Below, one piece after another: positions 1,724-6,157 of a stretch of DNA of 6,157 bases. Origin of the DNA: Candidatus Fermentibacterales bacterium. GTDB lineage: Bacteria > Fermentibacterota > Fermentibacteria > Fermentibacterales > JAFGKQ01. The stretch spans positions 1 through 6,157 of the forward strand of contig JAFGKQ010000132.1 in NCBI GenBank assembly GCA_016928495.1. Direction: 5' to 3'. Both the position numbers and the translations under genes were made by a program. Under the pieces are notes generated by a model that saw only the letters and a program-made list of their open reading frames with translations, was not told where the DNA came from and made no database searches. Every line of letters begins with the position of its first letter. The first letter of the stretch is position 1.

Positions 1724-1730
1724 CTCCCTT
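1724..1730 (-). promoter_or_regulatory. Shine-Dalgarno of the phosphomutase gene
   Basis: The minus strand reads AAGGGAG, 8 nt before ATG 1715-1713. It begins on the last base of the upstream gene's TGA (1732-1730), so ribosomes finishing the pseudokinase gene are well placed to reinitiate. This decides in favour of ATG 1715 over GTG 1736. Confidence 0.7.
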
Positions 1731-2542
1731 CAGCACCCCTGCTTCCCGGCGGCGGAGTCGGTGAGCAGCTCTATCGAGTAGTGGCCAGGGCCCTCACCCG
1801 ATGATAGCATGCCTCCGTGTGCCGAGACGATTTGCCTGGCAAGAGCAACGGGAAGCGCGGAGGACGATGCATCGCTATGAGGCTCACCCGTGTAGCCGAT
1901 CTCGAGCCTCGCCCTGGAGGACGAGGCGCTGGCGACCACCCTTACGTGCAGCACCTCCCCCCTGGCGGCGTGCCCGATCGCATCCGACAGCAGCTCGACC
2001 AGTGCCCTCGTCAGGTACTCGCGATCGGCCCTGACTGCCACGTCCCGGTCGGAAGCGACGGCGAGAGAGAGGCCCCTGGCGGAGACCTGCCCGCCGAGAG
2101 CGTGGATGGCCTCCATCAGCACCTCGTCCAGGGCGAGAGAGGCTCCTCTCTCGAGCAGAGGCGGACGCCCGGATTCCAGCTCCATGGAGTGCAGCTCGAG
2201 TATCTCGCCCAGGCTGTCCAGGTAGTGATCGAGCCTGTCCAGGTCTCCGCGCATGGCCTCCGTGGCGGAGTGGATCTCCTCTGTGGTCAGGAACGGCTGG
2301 GCCAGCAACTGCGCCCTGCTCCGGATCGAGGACAACGGCGCCCTGATCTCGGCGCCTATCCTCACGAGGAGCTCGGTCCTGAAGCTGTCCAGCGACTCGA
2401 TCTGCGAGGAGAGGTCGTCCAGGCTGGAGCGCAGCTCGCGCGCCCTGGACCTCCAGGACGCGGCAACTCGCCGGGACCTTTCTGCGAGAACCAGGAGAGC
2501 TACGACCACCAGGCCGCCAAGCCATGCGGGTATCTGGTTCAG
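1730..2542 (-). CDS. membrane-anchored histidine-kinase-like protein with degenerate catalytic motifs (probable pseudokinase)
   Basis: 270 residues from a proposed CTG start. Seen: one membrane helix at residues 5-20, followed by the Arg-rich ERSRR, which suggests a cytoplasmic C-terminus; a charged, possibly coiled-coil stretch at 30-58; a DHp-like region (52-120) with IGAEIRAPLSSI at 62-73; and a HATPase-like region (about 138-262) ending in ALARQIVSAHGG (233-244) and an HATPase-style final strand. In HisKA kinases the segment reads S-H-E-[LI]-R-T-P-L; here the phosphoacceptor His is Ala64 (codon GCC) while Glu65, Arg67 and Pro69 remain. The N-box ELLSDAIGHA (183-192) has Glu183, Asp187 and Gly190 where Asn, Asn and Lys are usual. 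The G1 box DxGxG is replaced near GYTGEP (216-221), and the G2 glycines are missing. It therefore should not autophosphorylate; a scaffold, sensor or allosteric role is inferred. There is no extracytoplasmic sensor domain. Conventional ATG starts at 2587 (no visible ribosome site, 44 nt overlap) and 2644 (101 nt overlap) are the alternatives. Confidence 0.8.
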   Translation of the reverse strand: MNQIPAWLGGLVVVALLVLAERSRRVAASWRSRARELRSSLDDLSSQIESLDSFRTELLVRIGAEIRAPLSSIRSRAQLLAQPFLTTEEIHSATEAMRGDLDRLDHYLDSLGEILELHSMELESGRPPLLERGASLALDEVLMEAIHALGGQVSARGLSLAVASDRDVAVRADREYLTRALVELLSDAIGHAARGEVLHVRVVASASSSRARLEIGYTGEPHSDASSSALPVALARQIVSAHGGMLSSGEGPGHYSIELLTDSAAGKQGC

Positions 2543-2543
2543 C

Positions 2544-4202
2544 TCAGCCTCCCTCCTTCCAGGTCCTGCCGAGCGAGCTGAAGGCATCCCAGAAGGCGGG
2601 AAGAGTGAAGGAGAGCAGAGGCATCTCGAGCAGAACGCCTCCATCGCGTCTCAGGAGTCTGAGCGTCCCGGTCTGCTCCGGGGAGCAGGCCGTCTCCGGC
2701 GACTCGGGACAGGCGCAGCCGAACCTGTCGAGGAAGGCGGCCTGAACGAGCAGCCTCGCCCGATCGTCGCCGCACTGGAGCTCGGGAAGGGGAAAGGACT
2801 CCAGGCGCCCGAGGAGCCTCGAGATCGTGATGCCTATCAGAGCGGCCGGGGAGTTGCCGGGCAGGACGGCGCCCGGTCCTCGCAGCCACTCGCTCTCGCC
2901 CCCGAGGAGGAGCAGGGGAACGTCCGATAGCCTGCCGTCGGAGGAGAGGAGCCCCGCAAGGCTGGCAGCATCGGAGTTGCCGTAGGAGCCCTGCAGGATC
3001 ACCAGGTCCGGTCGCATCGCCTCGCATGTCGAGATCAGGTCGAAGGGCCCCGGAGCCAGAACCGGCACTCCCCCGGCCTCGAGGACCAGGCTGCTGAGCA
3101 TCGACCCTGTCTCCCTGCGCGAGGTCCAGAAGGCAACAACGGGCCTGAAGGCGCAGTTCCTCGAGACCCACTCCCGGCTCGAGGCAAGCACGCTGTTCAC
3201 GGCGGAGAGCAGAGTGGACTCGTCGATCGGCTTGCGGAGGTCGGCGCTGGCGGAGCTGGAAGAGACCCTGAGCAACCGAACCAGGGAGGTCGACGGGTTG
3301 CTCCTTATCGCCCCGGCGACCGCCTCGACCTCTGCGTCCTCCAGGTAGTCGTCGAGGAGTATGATGTCCGGTCCGAGCCTCTCGGCGAGGCTTGCGCAGC
3401 GTGCTGCCTCGCTGATGGGAAGCACCGCGTAGCCCGCCCTGATCGAGAGGCATCGCGACATGTGGAGGAGGGACTCGTCGCTCGAGACGACCATCACGAC
3501 CGTTGGAAAGCCATGCACGAGCGCTTCGTCCATGGCGAACACGGGACACGAGAGGCAGGGTTCCGCGCAGGCATCCCGGTCACGCACGAGGGCGCAGCCC
3601 CTCGTTTCGCTGTCGAAGGACCAGCAGGGGCGTGAAGAGTCCAGGAGGGCCGGACATGCCGGGACGCTGTCAGCGTCATGCCCGGCCGCAGGCGCCGGCT
3701 GGCAGCGGGCGGGGCAGGCGCTGAAGACGATGGGCGACGAGGCGCGGGACCCGCGCCAGACCGAGAAGCGGCCGGTCTCGGCCCGCACGAAGCGCAGACG
3801 CAGGCCCCGGCACGTCCCGTCAGGATCGATGGGCATGATGGACCCGCCAAGAGCTGCGAAGAGCTCCTCGATGCGAGGACTCGGCTGGACCGGCCCGGAG
3901 TCTCCGTCCCGAAGGAGGTCCAGACAGACTGTCTCGCCCTGCTGAAAGGTTCTCATCCTCACTTTCACGGGCCCTCCATCCGTCGAGGTGCCCGAAACGA
4001 GACCAACGGCGGCCCTCAGTGCCCGGTCCATGAGCCTGGCATCCGAGATGACGTTGGAAACGCCCTCTATGCCGGAAACGTCGACTCCCTGACCGCTGCC
4101 TTCGCAGGCGGAAGCCGTCCTGAGGACCGCGTTCACCAGGTTCACCATCGAAAGGGAGGTGGGGAAGAGCAGTGGGCTCGTCTGGCGCCCGTCGTCGCTC
4201 AT
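2544..4202 (-). CDS. multidomain signalling protein: degenerate HATPase-like / Cys-rich module / receiver / pseudo-receiver
   Basis: 552 residues, soluble, no signal peptide or membrane helix seen. Residues 14-139 have the order of a histidine-kinase ATPase domain (a helix at the N-box position, GGPVKVRMR at 76-84, and LFAALGGSI at 114-122 like the C-terminal LGGxI strand), but the N-box Asn residues are absent. Residues 160-222 hold eight Cys (163, 167, 183, 193, 203, 212, 216, 219) with CPA, CW and CxxxCxxCP spacing, resembling the two-CW type of putative metal-binding domain. Residues 232-340 are a receiver domain with Asp242, phosphoacceptor-position Asp284 (DIILLDDYL, 279-287), Ser314 and Lys324 (LRKPI). 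Residues 353-465 look like a second receiver in which the Asp position is Gln404 and the Lys position is Leu447. The last 85 residues, with four more Cys, are unassigned. ATG 4202 begins 3 nt after the pilT stop and has no clear ribosome site, suggesting coupled translation. There is no DNA-binding or other recognised output domain. Domain calls are by eye; exact function is unknown. Confidence 0.8.
   Translation of the reverse strand: MSDDGRQTSPLLFPTSLSMVNLVNAVLRTASACEGSGQGVDVSGIEGVSNVISDARLMDRALRAAVGLVSGTSTDGGPVKVRMRTFQQGETVCLDLLRDGDSGPVQPSPRIEELFAALGGSIMPIDPDGTCRGLRLRFVRAETGRFSVWRGSRASSPIVFSACPARCQPAPAAGHDADSVPACPALLDSSRPCWSFDSETRGCALVRDRDACAEPCLSCPVFAMDEALVHGFPTVVMVVSSDESLLHMSRCLSIRAGYAVLPISEAARCASLAERLGPDIILLDDYLEDAEVEAVAGAIRSNPSTSLVRLLRVSSSSASADLRKPIDESTLLSAVNSVLASSREWVSRNCAFRPVVAFWTSRRETGSMLSSLVLEAGGVPVLAPGPFDLISTCEAMRPDLVILQGSYGNSDAASLAGLLSSDGRLSDVPLLLLGGESEWLRGPGAVLPGNSPAALIGITISRLLGRLESFPLPELQCGDDRARLLVQAAFLDRFGCACPESPETACSPEQTGTLRLLRRDGGVLLEMPLLSFTLPAFWDAFSSLGRTWKEGG
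2548..2558 (-). promoter_or_regulatory. strong Shine-Dalgarno before an apparent CTG start
   Basis: The minus strand reads AAGGAGGGAGG, a near-perfect anti-16S match inside the last codons of the upstream gene. AAGGAGG ends 9 nt before CTG 2542-2540, and the overlapping GGGAGG ends 5 nt before it. No in-frame ATG, GTG or TTG lies at a suitable distance downstream. The upstream stop TGA (2546-2544) and this CTG are separated by one base, which fits coupled translation. Confidence 0.6.
3183..3509 (-). other. receiver (REC) domain with conserved phosphoacceptor Asp
   Basis: Codes for residues 232-340 of the 552-residue protein. Hydrophobic strand VVMVV then SSDES gives the acidic site (Asp242, with Ser241 in place of the first Asp). 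The third strand leads to Asp284, Ser314 lies after the fourth strand, and Lys324-Pro325 matches the conserved KP. These are the residues a receiver needs to take a phosphoryl group from a kinase. Confidence 0.7.
3537..3731 (-). other. Cys-rich putative metal-binding segment (two-CW-like) within the signalling protein
   Basis: Codes for residues 158-222 of the 552-residue protein. Seen: CPARC (163-167), CPA (183-185), CW (193-194), C203 and CAEPCLSCP (212-220). The paired CPx/CW motifs with a final CxxxCxxC suggest Zn or Fe-S coordination. The link to the two-CW family is from memory of its pattern and is not verified. Confidence 0.5.
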
Positions 4203-4205
4203 GGG

Positions 4206-5282
4206 TCAGACGAGGCCGCTGAGACGCAGCGCCAGATCGCCAGGGTTGGAGGCAGTCGAAAGCGCCTCCTGCTCGGAGATGTAGCCCTTCTGGAACAGCC
4301 TTGCGAGCTCTCCGTCGAGGGTCCTCATGCCGTACTGGGACGCGGACCGCTCCATGGCTTCGGGCAGCTCGCGCTCCCTTCCCGGCTCGAGTATGAGGTC
4401 TCTTATGAGCGGTGTCGCGATGAGGAGCTCCGTTGCAGGGATCAGGCCGGGCCGGTCAACGCGGGGAAGCAGCCTGAGAGACACGATGGCCTGAAGCACG
4501 CCGGAGAGCTGCGTCCGCACCTGGTTGTGCTGATAGGACGGGAACAGGTCGATTATCCTGCTGATCGTCGCCGCTGCCCCGCTCGTGTGGAGGGTCCCGA
4601 GCACCAGGTGCCCCGTCTCTCCCGCGACCAGGGCGGTCTCCAGGGTCTCCGTGTCCCTGATCTCTCCTATGAGTATCACGTCGGGATCCTGGCGGAAGAC
4701 GCTGTTCAGGGCGGATGAGATGCTCTCCGTGTCCTGCCCTATCTCGCGCTGGGTCACTACGGAGAGCTTGCTGGAGAAGAGGAACTCGATGGGGTCCTCC
4801 AGGGTGACGATGTGCGCGTTCCTCCGGGTGTTGATGATCTCGGTCATGGCCGCCATCGTCGTCGACTTCCCCGAGCCGGTCGGCCCGGTGATGAGAACGA
4901 GCCCGCTACGCAGCAGGGCTACGTCGGCCAGCTTGGAGGGAAGGTTCAGGTCATCGAGGCGCGGGATCTCCAGGGGCACCACCCTCACCGCGAGCTGGAC
5001 AGTGCCCATCGACCTGAAGACGTTGACCCTGAACCTGGCCAGGCCCTCGATGCTGATGGCGAAGTCGACCTCGCCCTTCCTCTGGAACCTGTCGCGCTGA
5101 TCTTCGCCCATCAGCTCGAAGGCCACCCTGAAGGTGTCCTCGCGTGACAGGGGGCCGTGGTCGCCCATGGCTCCCAGAGCGCCTGCGGCCCGGACCACGG
5201 GCGGCGAGCCGGCCTTGAGATGGATGTCGCTGGCTCCGCTCTCGACAGCCTTGGCGAGGATGTTCCTGATCTCCTGCTGCAA
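4206..5282 (-). CDS. pilT: PilT-like type IV pilus retraction ATPase
   Basis: A complete 358-residue protein of normal PilT length (about 345-370). PilT forms a cytoplasmic hexamer at the pilus base and uses ATP hydrolysis to depolymerise the pilus, driving twitching, adhesion and DNA uptake. Seen in order: GASDIHLKAG (16-25) of the N-terminal domain; RFRVNVF (83-89); Walker A GPTGSGKST (133-141); the Asp box TLEDPIEF (160-167); Walker B with catalytic Glu, ILIGEIRD (203-210, Glu207); the His box GETGHLVLGTLHT (221-233, His225 and His232); and LFPSYQHNQVRTQLSG (246-261). The C-terminal PilT helix normally reads AIRNLIRE; here it is PLIRDLILE (291-299), a moderate variant. GMRTLDGELARL (318-329) is typical of the retraction-motor tail rather than PilB. 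The start is TTG at 5282-5280, the only start codon between the in-frame stop at 5318-5316 and the conserved region, with a purine-rich GGGAAGGGACAGGA upstream. It lies 28 nt after the radical SAM gene and 3 nt before the signalling gene. Confidence 0.95.
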   Translation of the reverse strand: MQQEIRNILAKAVESGASDIHLKAGSPPVVRAAGALGAMGDHGPLSREDTFRVAFELMGEDQRDRFQRKGEVDFAISIEGLARFRVNVFRSMGTVQLAVRVVPLEIPRLDDLNLPSKLADVALLRSGLVLITGPTGSGKSTTMAAMTEIINTRRNAHIVTLEDPIEFLFSSKLSVVTQREIGQDTESISSALNSVFRQDPDVILIGEIRDTETLETALVAGETGHLVLGTLHTSGAAATISRIIDLFPSYQHNQVRTQLSGVLQAIVSLRLLPRVDRPGLIPATELLIATPLIRDLILEPGRERELPEAMERSASQYGMRTLDGELARLFQKGYISEQEALSTASNPGDLALRLSGLV

Positions 5283-5310: not shown

Positions 5311-6157
5311 TCAGGTCAGGGCTTCAAGCCCGCCCTCGACGGCAACAACCCTGCATCCGACAGCGTCTGCGATGTCTCCGACCGTCAAGCCGTCGAGGCT
5401 GAGGCCTTCCCTGTTGAACATCACATCCGGGAGGCAGACGGGCTCTTCTACCTCTCCGGCCGACCCTATCCGGCGGATAATATCCCAGCCGCCCAGCAGC
5501 CCCGCAACCCCGACGCTCTCGCCGAAGGTCGAGTTCTCCGCCCCCACCACGCCGTAGCCCGTTCCATCGAGGATCTCCGAGAGGAATGGCAGGCACATGC
5601 TGCCCGTGACCAGGGTTCCCGATCCGCTCCAGCCCCGGCCGCTTGCCCTTCTGGACGCCGCAACGTCCAGGAGAGCCGCGAGCAGGCCAATGCCGTTCTC
5701 GGCCTGCGGGCAGTCGACGTAGTGGTCCATTCCAGGAACTGCCCTTCCGGCGATCAGATAGAGCTCGTCAGCCCCGTATGCCCATCTGGTTCCCATGCGA
5801 TTCAGCGCCGTCCTCTGGAACTCCTCCACGAGGCACAGGGCGGCCTCCGCCTCCCCTCCCGTCAGCCCGCGAAGGGGCGGAGACACCCCGGAGTCGGTCT
5901 TCCTGTGAGAGGTCAGACCGAGCGGGACGACACCGACCGAACGCAGGCCCGGTGCCAGCGAGATCAGGTCCTGCAGAGTGCTCCGGAGCCTGGCCCCATC
6001 GTTCCATCCGGGAACGACCACGATCTGGGCGTCCACGCTGATCCCACCCCGGACGAGCTCTCCGAGCGTCTCGAGCACCGGCAGATCGTGCTGATGGCCG
6101 AACATCCGGCCCCTGAGAGATGCGTCCGTGGTATGAACCGAGACCCGAACAGGGCTC
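5311..6157 (-). CDS. radical SAM / DUF512 family protein, C-terminal part (5' end outside window)
   Basis: An open frame of 281 residues runs from the window edge to TGA 5313-5311; the internal ATG at 6105 is not the true start, since conserved sequence continues upstream. Seen: VSVHTTDASLRGRMFG just inside the edge, like the VHATxPxLRxxMLG region of this family; QIVVVPGWND (6027-5998), like QIVLCPGxNDG; SVGVVPLGLTSHRK (5940-5899), the family's VVPxGLTxxR; PQAENGIG (133-140 counted from the 6105 Met), like QxENGVGM; and ENSTFGESVGVAGLLGG (190-206) ahead of the C-terminal FNxEGLxLDGLT, which matches the DUF512 end. These proteins normally carry a PDZ-like domain and a CxxxCxxC radical SAM cluster at the N-terminus, which would be beyond 6157. 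The biochemical reaction is not established to my knowledge; an Fe-S oxidoreductase role is only an annotation by family. It is the first gene seen in the apparent operon, ending 28 nt before pilT. Confidence 0.9.
   Translation of the reverse strand, partial: SPVRVSVHTTDASLRGRMFGHQHDLPVLETLGELVRGGISVDAQIVVVPGWNDGARLRSTLQDLISLAPGLRSVGVVPLGLTSHRKTDSGVSPPLRGLTGGEAEAALCLVEEFQRTALNRMGTRWAYGADELYLIAGRAVPGMDHYVDCPQAENGIGLLAALLDVAASRRASGRGWSGSGTLVTGSMCLPFLSEILDGTGYGVVGAENSTFGESVGVAGLLGGWDIIRRIGSAGEVEEPVCLPDVMFNREGLSLDGLTVGDIADAVGCRVVAVEGGLEALT

Follow-up and report, generated by a model that had tools for sequence, protein, structure and literature searches.

A pseudo-receiver (PsR) is a receiver fold that lacks at least one of five active-site residues (DD, D, T/S, and K) (PMC12632262). 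The pseudo-receivers of the ShkA and CikA hybrid kinases are known to be regulated by contact or ligand (PMC12632262), and in FrzS of Myxococcus an Asp-less receiver is required for social (pilus-driven) motility without phosphorylation (PMC1974792). LvrB, a hybrid response regulator of Leptospira, is represented in the PDB by its phosphorylated receiver form and its ADP-bound catalytic domain. FrzS contains one receiver only, in a protein context other than the one described below; to our knowledge, it has neither a Cys module nor an ATPase fold, and no PilT paralogue is encoded beside it. The two-CW hybrid histidine kinases, such as the L199 ORF with the order PAS–two-CW–HisKA–HATPase–REC, bring together a Cys module, a HATPase fold, and C-terminal receivers.

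The window analysed here, which is the whole 6,157-nucleotide stretch from a Candidatus Fermentibacterales bacterium, encodes a 552-residue protein (2544–4202, minus strand; hereafter the window protein) whose sequence suggests a hybrid histidine kinase now devoid of catalysis: it no longer has the DHp domain with its His, the ATP-binding boxes, the metal-binding pair of the receivers, or the Asp at two of the three sites. The architecture is unusual but derivable, being that of a catalysis-stripped hybrid kinase beside a private pilus motor, and hybrid-kinase ancestry is natural given the architecture of the L199 two-CW hybrid kinase, whose module set the window protein shares. It differs from the L199 ORF in that its Cys module follows the ATPase fold, it has neither a DHp domain with its His nor the ATP boxes, and each of its receivers is degenerate. 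Like ShkA and CikA, the window protein joins a kinase architecture to an internal pseudo-receiver (PMC12632262), whereas those kinases are catalytically active and its own kinase part is dead and reduced to an ATPase fold; like FrzS of M. xanthus, it would tie a phosphorylation-independent receiver fold to pilus-driven motility (PMC1974792). An unusual combination of receiver and kinase domains is also shared with LvrB, which is chemically competent and differs in domain order.

Domain architecture of the window protein

The ORF, called from an ATG at 4202 to a stop at 2544 on the minus strand, is a real gene, since its GC content by codon position (0.65/0.55/0.83) is of the coding type, as in the neighbouring genes, and since collinear orthologues with 25–33% identity are found in two further genomes, G002 and G005. 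Each of the three genomes comes from a different family of one order, and these three orthologues, one of them interrupted, are all that were found. The G005 orthologue comprises 550 residues, and the G002 orthologue (L002:736-2736) spans 667 codons with a single in-frame TGA, placed in the first receiver fold, which is either a true stop or an assembly error; given this TGA, the G002 gene may be dispensable or decaying. The N-terminus of the G002 orthologue is longer by about 120 residues, and its start is faintly PAS-like (2.3% in profile comparison versus a maximum of 0.4% for shuffles, suggestive at most). No RNA element was found in the window.

No family for the whole protein was found in Pfam, NCBIfam, or PADLOC, in line with the non-standard layout described in an earlier note on this DNA, and a PDB sequence search gave no real match. 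NCBIfam returned sub-threshold receiver matches alone, at about residues 234–317. Homologue searches recovered the full-length orthologues in G002 and G005; no distant full-length homologue was found in a first set of 146 and a subsequent set of 385 genomes from other lineages, where all further matches are receiver-only and lie within about positions 214–491 of the 587-position model. The species genome collection was scanned twice, once without a match and once with receiver-only matches.

For the piecewise comparison with the three-orthologue alignment, profiles were built from 73 receivers and 18 histidine-kinase cores. Residues 10–148 (3759–4175, minus strand) match the histidine-kinase cores with a probability of 86.8% (hhalign, E = 4.3e-6), compared with a maximum of 1.1% for column-shuffled profiles (n = 20). 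There is no Pfam match to this part, and similarity is weak at the sequence level; the profile comparison confirms the predicted degenerate kinase ATPase (HATPase_c-like) domain, and HATPase similarity is found within residues 14–139, where it had been placed before. None of the N-box Asn, G1, and G2 boxes is present at the aligned positions in any of the three orthologues. The structure model of the N-terminus has a pLDDT of 55 and matches histidine-kinase catalytic domains (VIA-align Z up to 12.3, with the LvrB catalytic domain as the top match, tied with others), and its alignment rows are HATPases, so it is not independent of the profile result. The absence of a DHp domain also holds: Pfam gives no HisKA match with a phospho-accepting His in the window protein, and the stretch ahead of the ATPase fold is too short to hold one. 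The N-terminus of the window copy is shortened.

The ATPase fold is followed by a Cys module (residues 155–227; 3522–3740, minus strand). Eight of the 19 Cys residues of the protein lie within one 60-residue stretch (permutation p = 0.017), and four residues with the spacing C183-x9-C193-x22-C216-x2-C219 are kept in all three orthologues, which bears out the metal-type cluster seen earlier; three of the four occupy invariant alignment columns, and C183 comes from a separate alignment. The R191-P192-C193-W194 (RPCW) motif is conserved in all three as well, at an overall identity of about 27%. The window pattern CPAxx...RPCW...C...CLSCPVF fits the second half of the two-CW domain (NF045718), for which the pattern is C..CW..C..CxxC-[PDE]-[VF] and the window reads CPALLDSSRPCW...CLSCPVF. 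In hhalign comparisons with true two-CW sequences, the window module reaches 44–62%, a score attained by none of 60 shuffles; the G005 module is weak (7–22%) but likewise scores higher than every shuffle, and the shorter G002 module is not significant against a short-form two-CW profile. Two-CW membership is withheld because the module scores below the curated NF045718 cut-off of 35 bits, at which there is no match in G000 and none at the G002 or G005 locus, and residues 155–227 are best viewed as a putative eroded two-CW-like module. True two-CW modules of other lineages occur in histidine kinases, hybrid histidine kinases, and GGDEF, HD, and MCP proteins. The Cys site would hold Zn or Fe–S, and redox or metal sensing by the module is possible.

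The remainder of the protein comprises three receiver folds (REC1, REC2, and REC3). REC1 (residues 233–345; 3168–3506, minus strand) is supported by hhalign (99.4%, E = 5.7e-22) and by the residue table. It retains Asp284, Ser314, and Lys324, the first two of which are invariant in the three orthologues while the third is kept in two, and the acidic metal-binding pair is gone (S240-S241 in the window, SS in G002, and SG in G005), as are the greater part of alpha4 and the DGxxV motif. REC2 (residues 350–470; 2793–3155, minus strand) is supported by hhalign (96.5%, residues 350–468), a partial model, and Foldseek, and lacks the DD pair, the phospho-Asp (Q404 instead), and the Lys. REC3 (residues 471–552; 2544–2792, minus strand) is a truncated receiver fold (hhalign 54.8%; shuffles reach at most 0.4%) without the Asp; it is longer and much clearer in G002 (PPLLVIEDDSLLGILQAAFSDRYGYRC...) and G005, and the window copy has suffered an internal loss. 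Segment-wise profile searches thus recover the HATPase, REC1, and REC2 as the earlier note proposed, and assign residues 466–552, left unassigned there, to the third fold. In the AlphaFold model of REC2–REC3, the first 60 residues, which form the REC2 core, have a pLDDT of about 90, and Foldseek on the REC2 model returns receiver matches, FrzS among them; the model was built with receiver rows and supports the profile result without being independent of it.

No part of the window protein reaches the PF00072 curated cut-off of 30.2 bits, whether searched on its own or in the genome scan, and REC1 lies below it in every orthologue (20.1 bits in G005). The complete set of five active-site residues is present in none of the three folds. 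REC1 counts as a pseudo-receiver because S240 S241 stand in place of its acidic pair, and REC1 and REC2 both fall under the pseudo-receiver definition (PMC12632262); the tandem receiver folds described previously therefore stand, but the supposed intact receiver is itself a pseudo-receiver. A role as phosphoryl acceptor, which had also been suggested, becomes doubtful for the same reason: Asp284 is still present in REC1, but the acidic residues that would bind the metal ion needed for phosphorylation are not. Residual phosphorylation could explain the kept Asp284 and Ser314 and the Lys found in two of the three orthologues. No output domain is recognised in the window protein, as previously stated.

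PilT3 and the neighbouring histidine pseudokinase

Directly upstream of the window-protein gene lies PilT3 (4206–5282, minus strand), a retraction ATPase paralogue of the PilT/PilU family (TIGR01420, 420 bits versus a cut-off of 319), and the same holds in all three loci. The three PilT3 proteins form a clade of their own (support 100/100), with 69–70% identity among themselves; their identity to other full-length PilT copies does not exceed about 50%. Searches of the phylum and of the order gave the same 42 genomes, among which PilT3 and the window protein occur in the same three, adjacent each time; neither gene was found in the other 39, several of which are incomplete. The window, G005, and G002 share the gene order PilT3, window protein, HK-like protein, and phosphomannomutase, while in the remaining phylum loci examined the HK-like protein and phosphomannomutase follow a DUF512 or TPR protein, with no PilT3 and no window protein. 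That one site is occupied in all three families suggests an old pair of PilT3 and the window protein that has been lost repeatedly, rather than a recent transfer. A mobile unit carrying the PilT3 gene at varying insertion sites was considered and rejected, as one and the same chromosomal spot is occupied in all three genomes.

Two further features of the neighbourhood were observed. A DUF512/radical-SAM protein (5311–6156) is encoded upstream of PilT3 in the window, is absent from that spot in G002 and G005, and abuts the HK-like gene in other genomes (L050 and L063). The conserved upstream TPR protein (L050:1157-3010, L051:2718-4544, and L069), for which Pfam reports TPR and nothing else, contains a segment like KRKRLGEYLVTDDLLKADDVLKALEVQ...LGDVLVDMGMVSRRQVREAL that resembles the MshEN-type domain found at the N-terminus of pilus ATPases.

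The gene directly downstream of the window protein (1730–2542, minus strand) encodes a membrane-anchored protein with HisKA and HATPase similarity. Its positional orthologues were compared at 36 loci (the window and L050–L084): the phospho-His column holds His in none of the 36, the N-box Asn is present in none, with Glu in 34, and the G2 box is deleted in all, whereas canonical histidine kinases have the His in 17 of 18 cases and the N-box Asn in 15 of 18. These losses mark it as a histidine pseudokinase, with the kinase fold but without the phospho-His and the ATP-box residues, and both the window protein and its neighbour lack residues competent for phosphotransfer. In each of the 36 loci examined across the phylum, the pseudokinase gene precedes phosphomannomutase, and MoxR comes next in those loci that were read. 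No ATG, GTG, or TTG is present for it near the end of the window-protein gene (2500–2570); AAGGAGG lies 9 bases ahead of an in-frame CTG at 2542–2540, which is likely its non-standard start, and the alternative ATG at 2644 would overlap the window-protein gene by about 100 bases. A sister relationship between this pseudokinase and the N-terminus of the window protein is unsupported (hhalign 1.3%).

Four of these findings go beyond what the earlier note described: that there is a third receiver, that the gene is strictly paired with a PilT paralogue, that the Cys module is of two-CW character, and that the adjacent kinase is itself dead.

Possible roles beside a pilus retraction motor

The best explanation, to which we give a probability of about one half, is that the hybrid kinase without catalysis regulates PilT3 or acts as its scaffold in a non-catalytic manner, with the Cys site tuning the contact. 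The window protein would bind the co-encoded PilT3, as scaffold or allosteric regulator, through its receiver folds as contact surfaces, and the adjacent membrane pseudokinase would possibly join this contact. The four-Cys site, either structural or metal/redox-sensitive, would tune the contact, which in turn would set the timing of type IV pilus retraction by PilT3. The basis on which binding to PilT3 is proposed is gene adjacency, in three of three loci, and control of pilus retraction by the window protein is likewise a proposal. In favour of this explanation are the domain homology above shuffles, the lost residues, the conserved Cys residues and RPCW motif, the pairing with PilT3, and the dead neighbour (36 of 36 loci), as well as the occurrence, in phyla other than this one, of a like Cys module beside HisKA/HATPase, GGDEF, HD, and MCP domains, and the precedent of FrzS; against it are the small number of orthologues (three), the in-frame TGA in one of them (G002), the kept Asp284 and Ser314 of REC1 with the Lys in two of three, and the low confidence of the ATPase model, which was built from HATPase rows.

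Asp284 and Ser314, invariant in the three orthologues, together with Lys324 in two, would fit an orphan response regulator, in which a canonical kinase encoded elsewhere phosphorylates Asp284 of REC1, whose state is then relayed to PilT3 or some other partner. In the genome scan, 22 receiver matches were found, 19 of them over the curated cut-off. Such a regulator is unlikely, however, as none of the three orthologues retains either acidic position and REC1 is degraded in its DGxxV motif and alpha4 and scores below PF00072 throughout. It is similarly improbable that the gene is a relic, that is, a lineage-specific hybrid kinase gene decaying with no function today: although the losses in REC3 and at the N-terminus of the window copy, the in-frame TGA in G002, and the absence of the gene from most of the phylum would agree with decay, the window and G005 frames are long and intact, the locus, order, and key Cys residues are unchanged across three families at about 27% identity, and the divergence equals that of the neighbouring pseudokinase, itself kept in every locus examined.

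A further possibility, which we regard as rather unlikely, is that the protein is foremost a cytosolic metal or redox sensor, whose Cys site (Zn or 4Fe–4S) controls assembly and whose receivers contact targets other than PilT3. The four conserved Cys residues and the input position that two-CW-like modules occupy in signalling proteins would suit such a sensor, but the function of two-CW domains is not established in the literature consulted, the site may be purely structural, and the linkage to PilT3 favours a pilus role. Regulation of PilT3 by a non-catalytic scaffold can also be taken further, to a pair of one pseudokinase and three pseudo-receivers that has lost all phosphotransfer chemistry and would steer a dedicated retraction motor by contacts gated by a cysteine–metal site; this extension is offered tentatively, and at rather low odds.

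How pseudo-receivers switch without phosphate has been described as an open question (PMC12632262). In the window protein and its neighbour, receiver, kinase, and sensor-type modules are all eroded and yet are kept beside PilT3, an enzyme of measurable activity, which makes the pair a clean example of how signalling folds are put to use again once their chemistry is gone. A second and broader example is the neighbouring kinase, dead and present in 36 of 36 loci examined across the phylum.
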